Positions 8,147 through 33,469 of a stretch of 33,469 nt of DNA are shown piece by piece. The translations under genes were made by a program, and so were the position numbers. The DNA is from a bacterium (GTDB lineage: Bacteria > Sysuimicrobiota > Sysuimicrobiia > Sysuimicrobiales > Segetimicrobiaceae): assembly GCA_035691305.1 (NCBI GenBank), contig DASSJF010000084.1, positions 1 through 33,469 of the forward strand. The letters are read 5' to 3'. The notes beneath the pieces are model-generated. The model searched no databases, was not told the DNA's origin, and saw nothing but the letters and a program-made list of their open reading frames with translations. Each line of letters opens with the position of its first letter. Position 1 is the stretch's first letter.

Positions 8147-9157
8147 CTACGGGCCGAGCGATTGGACGGCGTTGTTCACGAAGCTCGAGTCGACGAACTG
8201 ATCGAGGGGCACGTACCGCGAGGTCATGCCGTTCTGCACGTACCACGCCTCTTGCCGCTCCAGGTCGAGCAGGTAGAGCCGGGCGTTCCGGTCGATGTAC
8301 GGCAGCGACTTGGCGACCGCCGCCTCCGGCTGATCGATCGTCCGCGCGGTGAGGGCGACGATCGGCCGGCACTCGCCGCGGGGCGGCCGGCGCAGGCACG
8401 CGTCGAAGTAGTCGCGCGTCGCGCGGACGTAGCCGCGCATGAAGCGGTCGCCGAGGTCGTGGTCGTTGTGCAGGCGGGCGCCGTAGAAGACGCCGGTCAC
8501 CTGGTTGACGATGCGGTCCCCGGCGTAAAAGAGTATCTTGCCCCAGCCTTCCTGCTCCGCGGCGGCGCCCCAGGGCGGCGAGAGCAGCGCCGCGGCGATC
8601 TGGCCGGTCCGCAGCGCCTCGTCGACGAGGGTCACTTCGCGCAGCGGCACGAGCTGGACGTCCTGGAGCGTCATCGACTCGCGCTCGAGCAGTTTCGCGA
8701 TCTGGTAGTGGAACGTCGAACCGAGCGTCGTGATGCCGATGCGCCTGCCCCGCAGGTCCCGGAGCGACCGGACGCCGGAAGCGTAGGTCTGCTTCGTGAC
8801 GACGACCGCGTTCAGCGGGTAGCCGGGCCGCTCCTGACCGCGGTCGGCGACGAGGTAGATTTTCCCGCCGCCCGCCGCCAGGTTGAAGAGCGTGCCGGTG
8901 ATCCCGGTCGCGCCGACGTCCACGTCGCCGGTCACGGTCGCGGTGGCGACCGGCGCCGCGGCGCCGAAGTATACGAACTGGATCTGGAGGCCCTCCCGGC
9001 TGAAATACCCGCGGTTGACGCCCCAGAAGAGCGGTGCTCCGCCGACGAGCTTCAACGTTCCAACGCGAACGACCGTGGGCGCTTGGGCGGCGGTCTCGGC
9101 CGAGACGGCGAGGCACAGCAACGCCGCGATCACGACCGGCAGGAGGCGCGAATGCAC
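8147..9157 (-). CDS. ABC transporter substrate-binding protein, SsuA/NMT1 type
   Basis: Periplasmic or lipid-free exported binding protein of the importer. With the GTG at 9157 it has 336 residues and a compact signal peptide (HSRLL, then a hydrophobic run PVVIAALLCLAVSA, then AETAAQA). The mature part has the NMT1/SsuA pattern: KLVGGAPLFWGVNRGYF, GDVDVGATGITGTLFNLAAGG, LRDLRGRRIGITTLGS, VDEALRTGQIAAALLSPP. The frame is open upstream, and an ATG at 9202 would add 15 residues before the signal. The GTG is preferred because it gives a normal signal peptide and has AGGA at -10 to -7. Unusually, both the AGGA and the GTG lie inside copy 1 of the intergenic palindrome. Confidence 0.87.
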   Translation of the reverse strand: MHSRLLPVVIAALLCLAVSAETAAQAPTVVRVGTLKLVGGAPLFWGVNRGYFSREGLQIQFVYFGAAAPVATATVTGDVDVGATGITGTLFNLAAGGGKIYLVADRGQERPGYPLNAVVVTKQTYASGVRSLRDLRGRRIGITTLGSTFHYQIAKLLERESMTLQDVQLVPLREVTLVDEALRTGQIAAALLSPPWGAAAEQEGWGKILFYAGDRIVNQVTGVFYGARLHNDHDLGDRFMRGYVRATRDYFDACLRRPPRGECRPIVALTARTIDQPEAAVAKSLPYIDRNARLYLLDLERQEAWYVQNGMTSRYVPLDQFVDSSFVNNAVQSLGP

Positions 9158-9171
9158 CGGAGGTCCTGCGG
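9139..9171. repeat. Palindromic repeat, copy 1
   Basis: A 33-base element beginning GCAGGAGGCGCGAATGC and ending GGAGGTCCTGCGG. Ends GCAGGA/TCCTGC are inverted. It differs from copies 2 and 3 at three internal positions in its first 31 bases. Read on the minus strand it supplies the AGGA and GTG at the start of the binding-protein gene. On the plus strand it holds AGGAG, then ATG, then GGAGGT. Confidence 0.85.
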
Positions 9172-9289
9172 AAAGGCCACGAAGGCGGCCGAGACAGGGC
9201 ATGAGGAACGAACGGTGCAACCGAATCCCCCCGAAGCGGGACATAAGTGATGACGGCAACATCGTTCGGCGCACCGCGAAAGCGCGCCT

Positions 9290-9320
9290 GCAGGAGCCGC
9301 GAATGCGGCGGAGGTCCTGC
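9290..9320. repeat. Palindromic repeat, copy 2
   Basis: A 31-base copy identical to copy 3, with inverted ends GCAGGA/TCCTGC and core GAATGCGGCGGAGG. It begins a tandem pair with a 40-base period (nine bases separate copies 2 and 3). It lies in the divergent region between the ABC importer and the dienelactone hydrolase. Confidence 0.9.
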
Positions 9321-9329
9321 CTGGACAGG

Positions 9330-9360
9330 GCAGGAGCCGCGAATGCGGCGGAGGTCCTGC
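9330..9360. repeat. Palindromic repeat, copy 3
   Basis: Identical over 31 bases to copy 2. It ends 30 bases before the dienelactone hydrolase ATG. AGGAG-7 bases-ATG within it could open a frame that runs in phase into that gene, giving an 18-codon extension, but the gene has its own better start at 9391. Confidence 0.9.
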
Positions 9361-9390
9361 GGAGACTGGGCACAGGGCGGGGAGGACGTC

Positions 9391-10335
9391 ATGACCGATC
9401 TGGGACGCTATATTCTCGAGGAATGGGCGGAGGAGTACCGCGAGGGCCGGCTGGGCCGCCGCGAGTTCCTCCGGCGCATTACCGTCTTCGCCGGCGGCGC
9501 CGCGGCCGGGACGGCGCTACTTGCGACGCTCGGCGTCACCGCATCTTCCGACGAAGTGCGCGCCGCGGCGGCTTCGCCCGCGCCCCCGCCGGCGCTGACC
9601 GCGCAGCCCGTCGTGCCGCCCGACGATCCGTCGCTCGACGCGCGGATGGTGTCGTTTCCCGGTACCGCGCCCGGGCCGCAGACGGTCTTCGGCTACCTTG
9701 CTCAGCCGAAGGGAGCGGGGCGCCTGCCCGCCGTGACCGTGATTCACGAGAACCGCGGGTTGGTGGACCACATCAAAGATGTCGCGCGCCGCGTCGCCAA
9801 GCTCGGTTATGCTGCCCTTGCGGTGGATCTCGTGTCGGGCGCCGGCGGCACGGACAAGTTACCCGATCCCGCCCAGGCCTCGTCGATACTCGGTCAGACA
9901 CCTCCGGAACAGCTCGTCGCGACGGCGTCCGCGGGCGTCCGCTACGCGGGGTCGCTCCCACGCGCACGTCCGGACCGCCTCGGCGTGATGGGCTTCTGTT
10001 TCGGCGGCGCGGTGACGTGGCGAGTGGCGACGGCGGTGCCGGAGCTCCGCGCCGCGATGCCGTTCTACGGCTCGAACCCGCCGCTCGAGGACGTGTCCAA
10101 GATCCGGGCGGCGGTGCTGGCCTTCTACGGCGCGCTCGACGAGCGGGTCGACGCCGGTATCCCCGCGATGCGCGAGGCGCTGGATCGTGCCACGGTTGTC
10201 TACGACATGGTGGTAGAACCCAACTGCGGGCACGCGTTCTTCAACAACACCGCGTCGAGCTATAATGCCTCGGCCGCGCAGGACGCGTGGGCCCGGCTGC
10301 AGACCTGGTTCGGGCGGTATCTGAAGACGGCCTAG
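9391..10335 (+). CDS. Tat-exported dienelactone hydrolase family protein
   Basis: An alpha/beta hydrolase of 314 residues. The N-terminus has a twin-arginine motif RREFLRR (24-30 region) followed by a hydrophobic stretch VFAGGAAAGTALLATLGV, so export by Tat is likely. The hydrolase domain (about 90-314) carries the dienelactone hydrolase set: Glu120 in HENRGL, nucleophile Cys203 in GFCFGG, Asp250 in GALDERV and His281 in CGHAFF. The ATG at 9391 follows GGGGAGGA with good spacing; the frame is open further upstream through the repeats. It ends on a CTAG shared with the stop of the convergent PIN toxin gene. The natural ester or lactone substrate is unknown. Confidence 0.9.
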   Translation: MTDLGRYILEEWAEEYREGRLGRREFLRRITVFAGGAAAGTALLATLGVTASSDEVRAAAASPAPPPALTAQPVVPPDDPSLDARMVSFPGTAPGPQTVFGYLAQPKGAGRLPAVTVIHENRGLVDHIKDVARRVAKLGYAALAVDLVSGAGGTDKLPDPAQASSILGQTPPEQLVATASAGVRYAGSLPRARPDRLGVMGFCFGGAVTWRVATAVPELRAAMPFYGSNPPLEDVSKIRAAVLAFYGALDERVDAGIPAMREALDRATVVYDMVVEPNCGHAFFNNTASSYNASAAQDAWARLQTWFGRYLKTA

Positions 10336-24440: not shown

Positions 24441-25124
24441 ACACCCCTTTGGGGTGCTTCCGGTTGTTGTAGCGGAATGCGTATTCGTCGAGGTATTTCT
24501 GAAGGTGCCTCGTCGGAACCCCCGTGATAGACCCCCGCCAATTCCGTTCTTTACCAACGCCTTCAGACTGTGGTAAATGCGGAGGTTTGTCTCCGCGCTT
24601 CCGTTGCGTCATGCTAAAGACTGGGACATCGTGTCGCGGTCCGGTCCGAGGTAGGTCTCGTCCATTTCGACGGATTCGCCAAGTCCACCGAGCGGCGGTG
24701 CGGTCTGTTCAGACGCCGACGCCAGTGTGCGAATCCGATCGAACATGCGCCATGCGGTCTTGTACGTGACGCCCAATTCCCGTTCCAGTTGTTTCGCGGA
24801 GATTCCGCACCGAGTGCTGGCCATCAGGTACATGGCATAGAACCACAGTTTGAGGGACGTAGCGGAATCCTGAAAGATCGTCCCGACCATCGGGTGTTCG
24901 TGATGCCCGCAGAACTGGCAGGAGTACGACGGACGTCCGTTGTTCCGATGGTGTTTCGTAACCTTCTGACACTTTGGGCAGTAAATCCCGTTGGGATACA
25001 GCGTCTTGACGAGGTACTCAAGACACGTCGCGTCGTCGGGGAACTGCCGTTCGAACTCCATCAGCGACGTGCGCGAGTCCGAGGACTTTGCCCGTTTCGG
25101 ACCGTTTCGGTTAACTTTCGACAT
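24391..25124 (-). pseudogene. IS1595-family transposase remnant
   Basis: The 5' part (25124-24609) encodes 171 residues: a zinc ribbon (YCPKCQKVTKHH, YSCQFCGHHEHP), the helical segment TIFQDSATSLKLWFYAMYLMA, the helix-turn-helix-like ISAKQLERELGVTYKTAWRM and the first catalytic acid in ESVEMDETYLG. It then breaks off at SQSLA-stop. The 3' part restarts in another frame and encodes WRGSITGVPTRHLQKYLDEYAFRYNNR, the usual end of these transposases, finishing at 24391. The central part with the second catalytic Asp is missing, and a further frame change lies near 24560. I found no terminal inverted repeats. The element is non-functional. Confidence 0.85.
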
Positions 25125-29585: not shown

Positions 29586-31654
29586 ACTCGAACCCCTCCC
29601 GGCTGGGCAACCCGTTTGCGCATCCGCACCTCGGTGCCGGCGGACGTCGCCTCGACTTCGACTTCTCCCATCAGCGCCTCTATCAGCTTCAGCCCGTGAC
29701 CGCGGTACCGGCCGCGCGACGACCGCCACCGCCCGATGTCCCGGACGGTGGCCGTGAGCACGTTGCCGGCGAGCGAGACTTGGCATTCGAAGAGGCCGTC
29801 GGTCGGGCCGTACGCGTGCTCGATCGAGTTGGCGCAGGCCTCGTTGATCGCCGTCATGGCGTCGTAGGCCTCTTCCGCCGCGAGGTCGACCGATTTGAAC
29901 CAGCGCCGCAGCGTCTGTCGCATCTGGGCCAGCGACGCGGGGACCGCGGGCAGCCGGATCTCGAGCCGCCCGGGGCTGAGCGGCGCGAGGCGCAGCGCGA
30001 CGAGCGCGATGTCGTCCTCCGCCGTCCGGCCTTCGAGGGCCGCCGCGACCACCCGGTCGACCAGGTCGTCGACCGGAATCCCGTGGTCGCGGCGCAGCAC
30101 CTCGGTGACGCGCTCGAACCCTTCGTCGATGCTCCGGCCGCGCACTTCGAGCAGGCCGTCCGTATAGACCATGACGGTCGACCGGGGCGGCAGGATGGCC
30201 CGTTGCTCCGTGTACGCGACCCCGCGCACGCCGAGGGGCGGGGCGCCCCCGTCGAGGCTGGTCACCCCGCCCGGCCCGACGACCAGCGGCGGCAGGTGCC
30301 CGAGGTTCAGATACCGTGCCTCCCGGCTCTCCGGGTCGATCACCAGGTAGACGAGCGTCGCCATCGTGCGGTCGTCGACGAGCCGGGTGAGACGTTCGGC
30401 GATCAGCGCCGGCGGGTTGCCCTCGAGGGCGTACGCGCGCAGGGCGTTGCGCAGTTGCCCCATCACGGCCGCCGCCCACACCCCTCGTCCCGCGACGTCG
30501 CCGATCACGAGACCGATGTGGCCGTTCGGAAGCGTCATGACGTCATACCAGTCGCCGCCGACAGCCTCGTGGTTGCCGGGCAGGTACCGCGCCGAGAGCG
30601 TGAGCCCCGGGATCTCCGGCAGGCGCTCCGGCAGCAGGCTGCGCTGCAACGTCTCGGCGGTGCCGCGGGCCCGCTCGTAGAGGAGCGTGTTCTCAAGCGC
30701 CACCGCCACCTGCAGCGCGAGCGCCTCGATCTGGACGCGTACCTCCGGCGAGAACGCGTGTCCCGCCCGCCGCGCGAGGACCATCGCGCCGAGCGGCTGT
30801 CCGAGCCGTCCGCGGACCCGCAGCGCGAAGAACGACGACCAGGGTCCGTCGCCGTTCACGGCCGCCTCGGCGAGCGGTTCAAAGGTCGCGTTCGGAAGAT
30901 CGGCCGGGTTGCGCTCCGCGGCCCAGACGGCCGCGAAGATGCCGGCGATGTCTTCCCGCGGCACGCGGAGCCCGACCGCCTCGGGCGCGACCGCGACGGC
31001 CCAGCGCGCGGGATCGTTCGGTACCGCCGGACCGCCGTCGCCTCGGTAGAATCCGGCCGCCGCGACCGCGGCGCCGGCGAGACGGCAGGCCGCGTCGACG
31101 ACGGACCGCAGCACCTCGTCGGCGCCGCGCGCGGCGTGAATCGCGGTGGCCACGTCGGTCAGCGCGCGCAGCTGCTGGACGGTCTGCCGAAGTTCGGTGG
31201 TGCGTTCGTGGACGGTTTCTTCGAGGCGCCCCGCGTGGCGCGCCAGCGCCTGCTGCTGGTCGGCGATCTGCCGCCGCAGCTGCCGCACCTGCACGGCGCG
31301 GCCGAGCGACGCGGTGAAGTACTCCCGATCGATCGGTTTCTGCACGTAGTCGTAGGCGCCGGCCCGCAGCGATCGGATCGCGAGGTCGTGCTCGCCGTGG
31401 CCGGTGATCAGGAGAACCGGCGTGTCGGGCCGCACCGCCCGGATGTGGGACAGCAGCGCGAGCCCGTCCATGCCCGGCATCTTGATATCGCTGACGATCG
31501 CGTCGTAGTCGACGGCGCCGATCTGTGCGAGCGCCGGGGCGGCCGAGGAGCACGTTTCCACGGCCACCCCGGGCATGCGCAGGCAAATCGTCTCGGGCAG
31601 CGCTTCGAGCAGCGCCGGATCGTCGTCGACGACGAGCACGCGGGGCCGCATCAT
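29582..31654 (-). CDS. Response regulator-GAF-SpoIIE phosphatase-RsbW-type kinase fusion
   Basis: A 690-residue protein joining a whole partner switch. Receiver domain 1-125: acidic pocket D10-D12, phosphoacceptor Asp56 (SDIKMPG), Thr84 and Lys106 (VQKPID). Coiled linker about 125-165. GAF about 165-325. PP2C/SpoIIE phosphatase about 350-560 with metal-binding GGDWYD (366-371), Asp386 in GDVAGRG, TDG (498-500) and DDI (547-549). RsbW-like HATPase about 570-685 with NEACANSIEHAY (N-box), Asp639 in RDIGRW and RGHGLKLI. Receiver phosphorylation by the upstream kinase should set the balance between phosphatase and kinase acting on the downstream STAS protein. ATG at 31654 overlaps the kinase stop (ATGA). 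Confidence 0.92.
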   Translation of the reverse strand: MMRPRVLVVDDDPALLEALPETICLRMPGVAVETCSSAAPALAQIGAVDYDAIVSDIKMPGMDGLALLSHIRAVRPDTPVLLITGHGEHDLAIRSLRAGAYDYVQKPIDREYFTASLGRAVQVRQLRRQIADQQQALARHAGRLEETVHERTTELRQTVQQLRALTDVATAIHAARGADEVLRSVVDAACRLAGAAVAAAGFYRGDGGPAVPNDPARWAVAVAPEAVGLRVPREDIAGIFAAVWAAERNPADLPNATFEPLAEAAVNGDGPWSSFFALRVRGRLGQPLGAMVLARRAGHAFSPEVRVQIEALALQVAVALENTLLYERARGTAETLQRSLLPERLPEIPGLTLSARYLPGNHEAVGGDWYDVMTLPNGHIGLVIGDVAGRGVWAAAVMGQLRNALRAYALEGNPPALIAERLTRLVDDRTMATLVYLVIDPESREARYLNLGHLPPLVVGPGGVTSLDGGAPPLGVRGVAYTEQRAILPPRSTVMVYTDGLLEVRGRSIDEGFERVTEVLRRDHGIPVDDLVDRVVAAALEGRTAEDDIALVALRLAPLSPGRLEIRLPAVPASLAQMRQTLRRWFKSVDLAAEEAYDAMTAINEACANSIEHAYGPTDGLFECQVSLAGNVLTATVRDIGRWRSSRGRYRGHGLKLIEALMGEVEVEATSAGTEVRMRKRVAQPGGVRV

Positions 31655-32943
31655 GTGGCGGCGGCCTCGGGCACGGCCGTTTCCAGCAGCGGGAGCTGCA
31701 GGAGGAACGCCGCGCCGGGCTCGGTCCGGCGCACGAGGGCGATCGAACCTCCGTGGTCCTTCAAAATGCCGTATGTGATCGCGAGGCCGAGGCCGGTCCC
31801 CTTCCCCACGACCTTCGTGGTGAAGAACGGGTCGAAGATGCGTCGCTCGAGGCCGGCCGGGATGCCGGGTCCCGTGTCCCGCACCAGCACCTCGGCCCAT
31901 CCCGGGCGCACGCTGCTGCGGATCTCGATCCGCCGCGGGCCGGGTACGCCGGCCGCATCCGGCACGACGTCCGCCAGTGCGTCGCGGGCGTTGGTGAGCA
32001 GGTTGATGAAGACCTGCTCGAGCTGGATCGGGCTGGCGGCGACCGTCGGATCCTCCGGCGCGAGGTCCAACACCACGTCGATGTCGCGCAGGCGCAGCTG
32101 TTCCTGCATCAGCGAGAGCGAGTGCCGCACCACGTCGTTGATCGCCACCGGCTCGCGACTGACCGGGGCGGTCCGTCCGAACGTCCGGAGGTGCGAGATG
32201 ATCTCTGTCGCCTTGCGGACCTGGGCGGTCGCCTTGTCGAGGTCGCGCGTGATGCGCTCAAGGTCCACGTCCCGCGAGATGCCGACGATGCGGATCTGGT
32301 CGATCACGTTGCCGATGAACAGGCCGATGTTGTTGAGGGGGTTGTTGAGCTCGTGGGCGACGCCGGTGGTGAGCTCGCCGAGCGTGGCGAGCTTGCCGGC
32401 CTGCACGAGCTGCTCCTGCTTGTCGCGCAGATCCTGCTCGCGGCGCTGCATCTCCATCGTCATCTCGTGCAGGTCGCCCATGATGTGGATCATGGCGCTC
32501 CGTGCCTGGCCGAGCCGGAGGTTGGAACGGTGCGAGTCCTGGAGGATGTGCAGCAGCGCGCGCCGCGAGTTGTCGAGGCGCTCGGTCTGCTGGGCGAGGC
32601 GGCGGCGGTCCTGCTCGTAGTCGACCAGAATGTGCAGCATCGCTTTGCGCTGGTCGCCGAGCCGGCGGTTCACGTCGTGGAGGTCGGCCATGATGTGCAG
32701 CATCGCACGGCGCTGCTCGTCGCGCTGGCGCAGGCGCCCTTCCAGGTCGGCGATCCGTTCGAGGAGGCGCGCGTGCTCCGCCGCGGATAGCGCCGGCGGC
32801 GTCCCGTCCGGCGGAGGACCTCCGGCCGCTCCTGGGCCTGCGGTGCGGGCCAAAGATGCCCCTCCTGCCTGCCAGGAGGCTTTGCCGTTGCCCCCCGGGA
32901 CGGCGGGCGCGGCCGATTGTGGCGCTGCCGGGCGGGCGTCCAC
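31651..32943 (-). CDS. Cytosolic sensor histidine kinase with repeated coiled-coil input region
   Basis: About 430 residues from the GTG at 32943. The N-terminus is Ala/Pro/Gly-rich, then a long coiled coil holds four copies of A-M/L-L/I-H-I-M/L-x-D at 80, 101, 129 and 150 (spacings 21, 28, 21). The dimerisation domain has the phosphoacceptor His197 in GVAHELNNP, then NINLL-type N-box (INLLTNARDAL), RDTGPGIP, FDPFFTTK and GKGTGLGL of the ATPase domain. No membrane helix. The likely partner is the receiver of the next gene, whose ATG overlaps this stop. Alternative starts: GTG 32991 (inside the PAS gene) or TTG 32853, which has the best Shine-Dalgarno sequence (AGGAGG, 7 bases). Confidence 0.9.
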   Translation of the reverse strand: MDARPAAPQSAAPAVPGGNGKASWQAGGASLARTAGPGAAGGPPPDGTPPALSAAEHARLLERIADLEGRLRQRDEQRRAMLHIMADLHDVNRRLGDQRKAMLHILVDYEQDRRRLAQQTERLDNSRRALLHILQDSHRSNLRLGQARSAMIHIMGDLHEMTMEMQRREQDLRDKQEQLVQAGKLATLGELTTGVAHELNNPLNNIGLFIGNVIDQIRIVGISRDVDLERITRDLDKATAQVRKATEIISHLRTFGRTAPVSREPVAINDVVRHSLSLMQEQLRLRDIDVVLDLAPEDPTVAASPIQLEQVFINLLTNARDALADVVPDAAGVPGPRRIEIRSSVRPGWAEVLVRDTGPGIPAGLERRIFDPFFTTKVVGKGTGLGLAITYGILKDHGGSIALVRRTEPGAAFLLQLPLLETAVPEAAAT

Positions 32944-32945
32944 CC

Positions 32946-33469
32946 CTACTGCTGCGTCTCGCCCCGCAGCCGCTCCACTTCGCTCTGCCACCGCTCCACC
33001 TCTTTTTCGAGCGCGATCATCTTGATCTCGCGGCCGACGACGACCTCTTCGAACTTCTCGAGCTCGAGGATCTTCTCTTGGAGCTCGAGCTTCGACTTTT
33101 CGAGGTCGCGGACAACGCGCTCATAGGCGCGCATGTCACGAAGGATGCCGATCACGCCGATCGCTTTGCCGTCCGAGTCGCGGAGCGCGGACGCGTTGAG
33201 GCTCGTCGGGATGACTTCGCCGGTGGCGGCACGCGGGTTGAGGCGGACGTTCCGCGTCACGCCGCGCTCGACGACCTCGCGGACCGCCGCGAGGAACTCG
33301 CGCGTTTCCTGAGGGGAGATGAACCGGGAGAGCGACTGCTCGATCACCTCGTCTCGGCGGAAGCCGAGCACTTCGGACACCGCGTCGTTGGTGTGCAGGA
33401 TCTTGCCTTCGAGGTCGGAGACGAACACCGGGTCCGGGGCGTTCTTGATCAGGCTTTCCGCGTAGGCGC
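32946..33469 (-). CDS. PAS-domain protein, start cut off by the window edge
   Basis: The visible 174 codons begin inside a PAS domain (SLIKNAPDPVFVSDLEGKI, LHTNDAVSEVLGF, then GVIGILRDM) that would sense a ligand or redox state. A coiled coil follows (DLEKSKLELQEKILELEKFEEVVVGREIKMIALEKEVERW), the linker usual at the end of PAS-containing signalling proteins. It stops (TAG) two bases before the GTG of the histidine kinase, so it belongs to the same operon. There is no output domain after the linker; what lies upstream of the window cannot be seen. Confidence 0.85.
   Translation of the reverse strand, partial: AYAESLIKNAPDPVFVSDLEGKILHTNDAVSEVLGFRRDEVIEQSLSRFISPQETREFLAAVREVVERGVTRNVRLNPRAATGEVIPTSLNASALRDSDGKAIGVIGILRDMRAYERVVRDLEKSKLELQEKILELEKFEEVVVGREIKMIALEKEVERWQSEVERLRGETQQ

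Follow-up and report, generated by a model that had tools for sequence, protein, structure and literature searches.

Palindromic repeats in a 33,469-nucleotide stretch of DNA (the window) from an uncultured soil bacterium of the phylum Sysuimicrobiota (CSP1-3; name from PMC11604079) very probably represent a genus-restricted family of mobile hairpins, 40–42 nt long with a rarer 66-nt form, that is kept 5' of Shine–Dalgarno (SD) sequences or in frame within genes. The family is previously undescribed, and its recent spread took in three related bacteria from soil, all uncultured, namely the host of the window (G000; 3.58 Mb in 87 contigs) and two congeneric sister species (G001 and G002). The best TruB matches in named genomes place the host in this phylum, nearest to a Centralia soil MAG and to ANGP1 MAGs and at a greater distance from the CSP1-3 genome. 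All genomes are draft assemblies, and copy counts are lower bounds, with 150 first-look candidates scored per genome.

Palindromes in the Window

Three 31-bp palindromes occupy positions 9139–9169, 9290–9320, and 9330–9360, and the pattern GCAGGAG-N8-25-GGTCCTGC has three matches in the window and none in 100 dinucleotide shuffles; the chance expectation for three such palindromes is none. The first-pass annotation had read the second and third copies as identical with a 40-nt period, which holds at 31 of 31 nt, and had given the first copy three differences, which is also correct, but copy 1 is 31 nt long (9139–9169) and not the 33 nt claimed. The features of the window are as follows.

8147–9157, minus strand: ABC-type (NMT1-like) substrate-binding gene (Pfam NMT1_2, 2e-13), with its GTG start inside copy 1
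9139–9169, plus strand: copy 1, a subtype with the inner stem GGCGC/GCGCC
9175–9198, plus strand: degenerate half-element GGCCACGAAGGCGGCCGAGACAGG after copy 1, read in the sequence
9290–9329, plus strand: copy 2, the 31-nt palindrome plus a 9-nt tail ending in GGACAGG (63.2 bits)
9330–9369, plus strand: copy 3, head-to-tail with copy 2 (67 bits)
9391–10335, plus strand: dienelactone-hydrolase-family gene (Pfam DLH, 7e-48), downstream of copies 2 and 3
31651–32991, minus strand: histidine-kinase gene carrying the long-form copy, aligned with L116 / G002:C15
32803–32868, minus strand: fourth, long-form (66-nt) copy, in frame in the kinase gene and encoding AGGASLARTAGPGAAGGPPPDG

Copy 3 ends about 21 nt 5' of the hydrolase ATG, and the hydrolase's own SD, GGGGAGG, lies in between. 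Half-units like the one that follows copy 1 also trail elements at loci L025 and L028.

Architecture of the Repeat Unit

Most copies share a 3' tail, N2-4-GACRGG, so the full unit measures 40–42 nt and consists of GCAGGA, an inner hairpin, the bulge GGAGG, TCCYGC, and this tail. The consensus folds as GCAGGA-GCCGC-(GAAT)-GCGGC-[GGAGG]-TCCTGC, with a stem of 6 + 5 bp that opens with G-C and C-G pairs and is interrupted by a one-sided 5-nt bulge. The bulge is a perfect SD sequence, and antisense copies present the anti-SD CCTCC. The predicted RNA fold of the consensus has an energy of −17.2 kcal/mol (z = −3.1; z = −4.1 for the minus strand), and all six reading frames are open in consensus units.

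Across 77 distinct rows of an alignment fitted to the model, 93.5% of the stem cells are paired, and 47 cells carry double changes, compared with 23 in shuffles and 1–5 in slid controls, all counts that take in related copies. This covariation supports a palindrome that is kept up at the DNA or the RNA level, between which it does not discriminate. The CCYG of the right arm can pair with the CRGG of the tail in 52 of the 54 copies tested; an apparent preference for this tail pairing (p = 1e-4) was set aside, since subfamily structure and the relatedness of the copies confound it. Variants of 66–67 nt with a larger inner arm (GCATCTTTGG...GCCCAGAAG) occur at three loci of G002 (L090, L092, and L093) and apparently form a second subfamily. 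None of the Rfam 15 covariance models matches the window at gathering scores, and a search of four element loci with the threshold relaxed to E = 1 returned one chance-level match, away from the element.

Units often stand head-to-tail, in arrays of two to five with a period of 40–42 nt and partial trailing copies. Such arrays are what a local minisatellite would produce, its tandem copies arising by slippage of local sequence at loci unrelated to one another. Slippage accounts for the arrays but not for the dispersal, as near-identical units lie at tens of unrelated loci and 49 of the 62 arrays are single copies. Single copies with clean empty sites refute slippage as the sole cause, and the likelihood of this explanation is close to negligible.

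Distribution across Genomes

A search of the host genome with the 31-mer returns nine sites, and the covariance model R1 finds at least about 27 copies there, spread over about 22 loci, at least 44 in G002, and at least two in G001. A pattern built on the right arm and tail has at least 48 matches in G002 and at least 14 in G001, and a reversed control pattern has zero matches in any genome examined. The repeat thus lies at many unrelated loci of the host and its two congeners, in agreement with the dispersed small element that had been suggested from the window alone.

The family is concentrated in one genus: of the 68 matches that the tail pattern has in 43 genomes of the order, 66 fall within it, and the remaining 40 genomes hold two isolated matches. 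A 31-mer scan of 84,980 species genomes, a collection that may omit the host and its close relatives, found none, and BLAST among four to five loci per sister genus recovered no dispersed repeat of this kind, the positive controls from the genus being detected. A match in G012 (locus L096), un-element-like and outside the genus, was taken as chance, and loci L041, L044, and L046 were set aside as chance coding matches. The sister-genus locus L161 (G008) carries a different tandem repeat, CGGGAGGGATCACTGAGC..., at about 1318–1408, near the hydrolase orthologue.

Presence, Absence, and Empty Sites

The window is syntenic with contigs G002:C15 and G001:C103. The divergent hydrolase and binding-protein genes are kept in both sister species, and the number of intergenic copies is zero in either. 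This bears on the other proposal of the first-pass annotation, an operator array in which a dimeric regulator would bind the palindromes and control the divergent importer and hydrolase genes. The inverted-repeat ends, the 40-bp tandem spacing (about four helical turns), and the location in a divergent promoter region would suit such an array. However, both genes persist in both sisters without any copy between them, and copies absent from the syntenic divergent promoter of two sisters are hardly its operators. The unit, moreover, is held by about 20 functionally unrelated loci and by coding sequences, and precedes tRNA-proximal, ribosomal, biosynthetic, and other genes that have no evident common regulation; its asymmetric bulge is also unlike a dyad operator. 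An operator role is highly improbable on these grounds. Two observations had been named beforehand as decisive, the repeat elsewhere and a copy in the same intergenic region of relatives; the repeat was found widely elsewhere, but that region of the relatives is without a copy. Elsewhere in the window, a truncated IS1595-like transposase ORF (24609–25124, minus strand; identity from reading the sequence) lies within a segment of about 21.0–25.6 kb that is unmatched in the syntenic contigs of the sister species.

At 21 further loci of the host, the downstream genes were traced to their orthologues in both congeners. The element occupies the same place at four of them in G002 (rbfA, a gene labelled lytR here, L039, and L023) and at none in G001; the nearest species thus lacks a copy at 17 of the 21 host sites and has nothing there to compensate for it. 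The four shared sites show some persistence, but presence or absence between species is the rule, so the copies move and behave as mobile DNA, which points to active transposition.

Besides the kinase gene, clean empty sites are found at a 71-aa ORF after tRNA-His, rpsM, ridA, L035, rseP, and etfB. Insertions at these six loci adjoin the SD or lie directly 5' of it, and in clear alignments the insert ends at the SD, as at the 71-aa ORF, where the boundary falls between CACCGGC and GGAGGGTCCTC-ATG. At etfB, the stop/start overlap with the upstream gene (acyl-CoA-dehydrogenase-like, a name from sequence reading) is retained despite the insertion, and the upstream gene gains a C-terminal extension. 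A uniform target-site duplication was sought in 15 empty/filled alignments, and no consistent one was found; exact comparison was feasible at the kinase site alone, as divergent flanks obscure the other sites. An element array lies upstream of thrS in G002 (G002:C13:1-149 and G002:C72:1-216; L065 and L066) and appears to split the assembly, with a T-box-like leader and thrS on separate contigs.

In the kinase gene, the host and G002 differ in their element content at two places. The long-form copy of the host, whose R1 score is only 14.6 bits, matches at all but 6 of 66 positions an in-frame copy that G002 carries in an MBL-fold-like gene, and the kinase of G002 has only a 24-nt remnant at the corresponding place. 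The exact empty site lies between 32930 and 32929, where the host reads GCCCGCCC directly followed by GGCAGCGCC and G002 carries an in-frame insert of exactly 42 nt, VDARP[AGGRAVAGGPAPDG]AAPQ, between nearly identical flanks. The insert has GGCAG at both ends, which could be microhomology. Elsewhere on the contig, identity amounts to about 80%, compared with the nearly identical flanks here, which suggests local gene conversion or strong conservation.

In-Frame Copies within Genes

Eleven coding copies are placed confidently by reading frame, and all of them are sense, about five further crude calls of antisense copies inside genes lying outside this set. The usual coding frame is GCA-GGA-GG (Ala-Gly-Gly...), and one in-frame 42-nt unit adds a Gly/Ala-rich peptide of 14 residues. 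Three tandem units stand in frame at the N-terminus of ThrS in G002, ValS has an in-frame copy in two species, and TruB has one mid-protein; further in-frame copies occur in PurE, SufD, an oxidoreductase, a TPP enzyme, an ABC-permease-like protein, the kinase (two), and the MBL-fold-like protein. The PurE, permease, and MBL names come from sequence reading, and the others from Pfam or orthologue alignment. Translation of in-frame copies would place peptides such as AGGREAAGGPARDG at the N-terminus of such proteins as ThrS, ValS, and PurE, and orthologues of valS, truB, and the kinase without the insert exist.

Rickettsia palindromic elements (RPEs; Ogata et al. 2000, 2002; reviewed in PMC10969869), first described at about 150 bp, are palindromic, dispersed intergenically, and found in frame in unrelated housekeeping genes, and their presence varies between species (PMC10969869). 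The present element shares with them the hairpin palindrome at dispersed loci, the presence or absence that differs between species, and the in-frame insertion in genes that have insert-free orthologues (valS, truB, and the kinase, with the purE and thrS copies also in frame). It differs from them in its much smaller size (42 nt, 14 aa), its GC-richness, its head-to-tail arrangement, its strong sense orientation on the 5' or SD side of genes, and its phylum. By analogy, the element would work as RPEs do, a likeness drawn from the descriptions of RPEs and not from their sequences.

Orientation and Proximity to Shine–Dalgarno Sequences

Most copies are in sense orientation and closely precede an SD and a start codon. 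With gene calls from a home-made codon-usage ORF scorer, co-directional gaps hold 22 sense and three antisense arrays (22/25), or 17 and three (17/20; p = 0.0026) once shared sites are removed, and 10 divergent gaps are occupied as against zero convergent ones. Of the 62 arrays, 30 are followed by an SD-like tetramer within 25 nt, compared with a background of 21% (p = 1.6e-6), and no excess of such tetramers is present upstream of the same 62 arrays. The sense and 5' bias could come from insertion at G-rich SD-like sites or from selection against antisense copies, which the data do not separate; sense copies in mid-gene slightly favour the former, a preference of the element for G-rich SD-like targets.

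The strong sense orientation at 10–40 nt before start codons would also fit a functional 5'-UTR element, an RNA hairpin with a GGAGG bulge that serves as a ribosome standby site or as a translation or stability element under selection. The stem covariation, the alternative CCYG/CRGG pairing kept in nearly all copies tested, and the four sites conserved between species agree with such a role. Nothing compensates for the element at the 17 sites that are empty in the nearest species, however; the copies within the truB, purE, and thrS coding sequences cannot act in this way, and Rfam offers no match. A general 5'-UTR function is rather unlikely, and some individual copies may have been co-opted, as copy 1 has been.

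The size class (20–40 bp), hairpin, high copy number, and intergenic location also recall REP/BIME elements mobilised by a RAYT (Y1 HUH) transposase, and the minus-strand tail YGTC resembles, weakly, the CGTC/TGTC tag of one REP superfamily (PMC3733652). The CGTC-tagged REPs (Di Nocera et al. 2013, PMC3733652), which include RPE-4, RPE-6, and dRS3, have an 8–9-bp stem that opens with A-T pairs and a 4–5-nt loop; their CGTC/TGTC motif stands unpaired at one end, head-to-head dimers predominate with negligible head-to-tail ones, and most of these REPs are located on the 3' side of ORFs, in gaps that are convergent or unidirectional (PMC3733652). The present element resembles them as a short hairpin that also occurs within genes and has no associated transposase. 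Its YGTC, the complement of GACR in the tail, can pair with the right arm and lies a few nucleotides off the stem. In contrast, its stem opens with G-C and C-G pairs and is broken by the 5-nt bulge, its arrays are direct head-to-tail repeats, and it lies 5' of starts, with no convergent gap occupied. Judged as Di Nocera et al. 2013 (PMC3733652) define REPs, the element is not one in its stem, arrays, or location. With GTAG REPs and REPINs, it shares size, hairpin, and dispersed copies, but it has no GTAG tag and the opposite position relative to genes. The Y1/RAYT domain (PF01797) is absent from G000, G001, and G002, with positive controls detected, and mobilisation as a REP/BIME is improbable.

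Reverse transcriptase (PF00078) is also absent from all three genomes. It is conceivable, if doubtful, that the family represents a new class of mobile palindromes that inserts selectively and with one polarity at sense SD-like (GGAGG/GGCAG) sites, can seed new ribosome-binding sites (RBSs), starts, and in-frame peptides because its hairpin bulge brings along a GGAGG, and relies on a mobiliser other than a RAYT or a reverse transcriptase. For the mobile hairpin family as such, units would enter a genome and then expand head-to-tail, being kept mainly where they are least harmful, that is, in sense directly 5' of an SD or in frame within a gene. In the window, two units stand before the hydrolase RBS, and the third supplies the RBS and start of the ABC gene; in such positions, the element may affect translation.

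Copy 1 and the Start of the ABC Substrate-Binding Gene

Both the AGGA and the GTG (9157–9155) of the ABC binding-protein gene lie within the minus-strand sequence of copy 1, as had been noticed at first reading, and the position of this GTG agrees with the signal peptides of the orthologues in the two sister species. A single base sets copy 1 apart from a perfect subtype-2 hairpin (GCAGGAGGCGCGAATGCGCCGGAGGTCCTGC), and this base, 9156, is the central one of the GTG start. The simplest reading is that the GTG arose by mutation of an inserted copy: the element would have landed over the old start region of the ABC gene, inverted relative to that gene, and a point mutation in the inserted stem would have created the GTG, turning copy 1 into an RBS and start codon. 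As the predicted mRNA hairpin of copy 1 pairs the SD and GTG alike, translation of the ABC gene may be damped.

Significance

Rickettsia provides the best-known protein-coding palindromes, whose means of spread is, to our knowledge, unsolved. The family described here, smaller and GC-rich, is their analogue in an unrelated phylum of uncultured soil bacteria (Sysuimicrobiota/CSP1-3), and a new example of protein-coding mobile DNA with clear empty and filled sites between congeners, whose in-frame copies reach essential translation genes. The window itself holds a likely case of a mobile hairpin turned into the RBS and start codon of a gene. Comparison of strains can test both movement without a known transposase and the creation of new N-termini.
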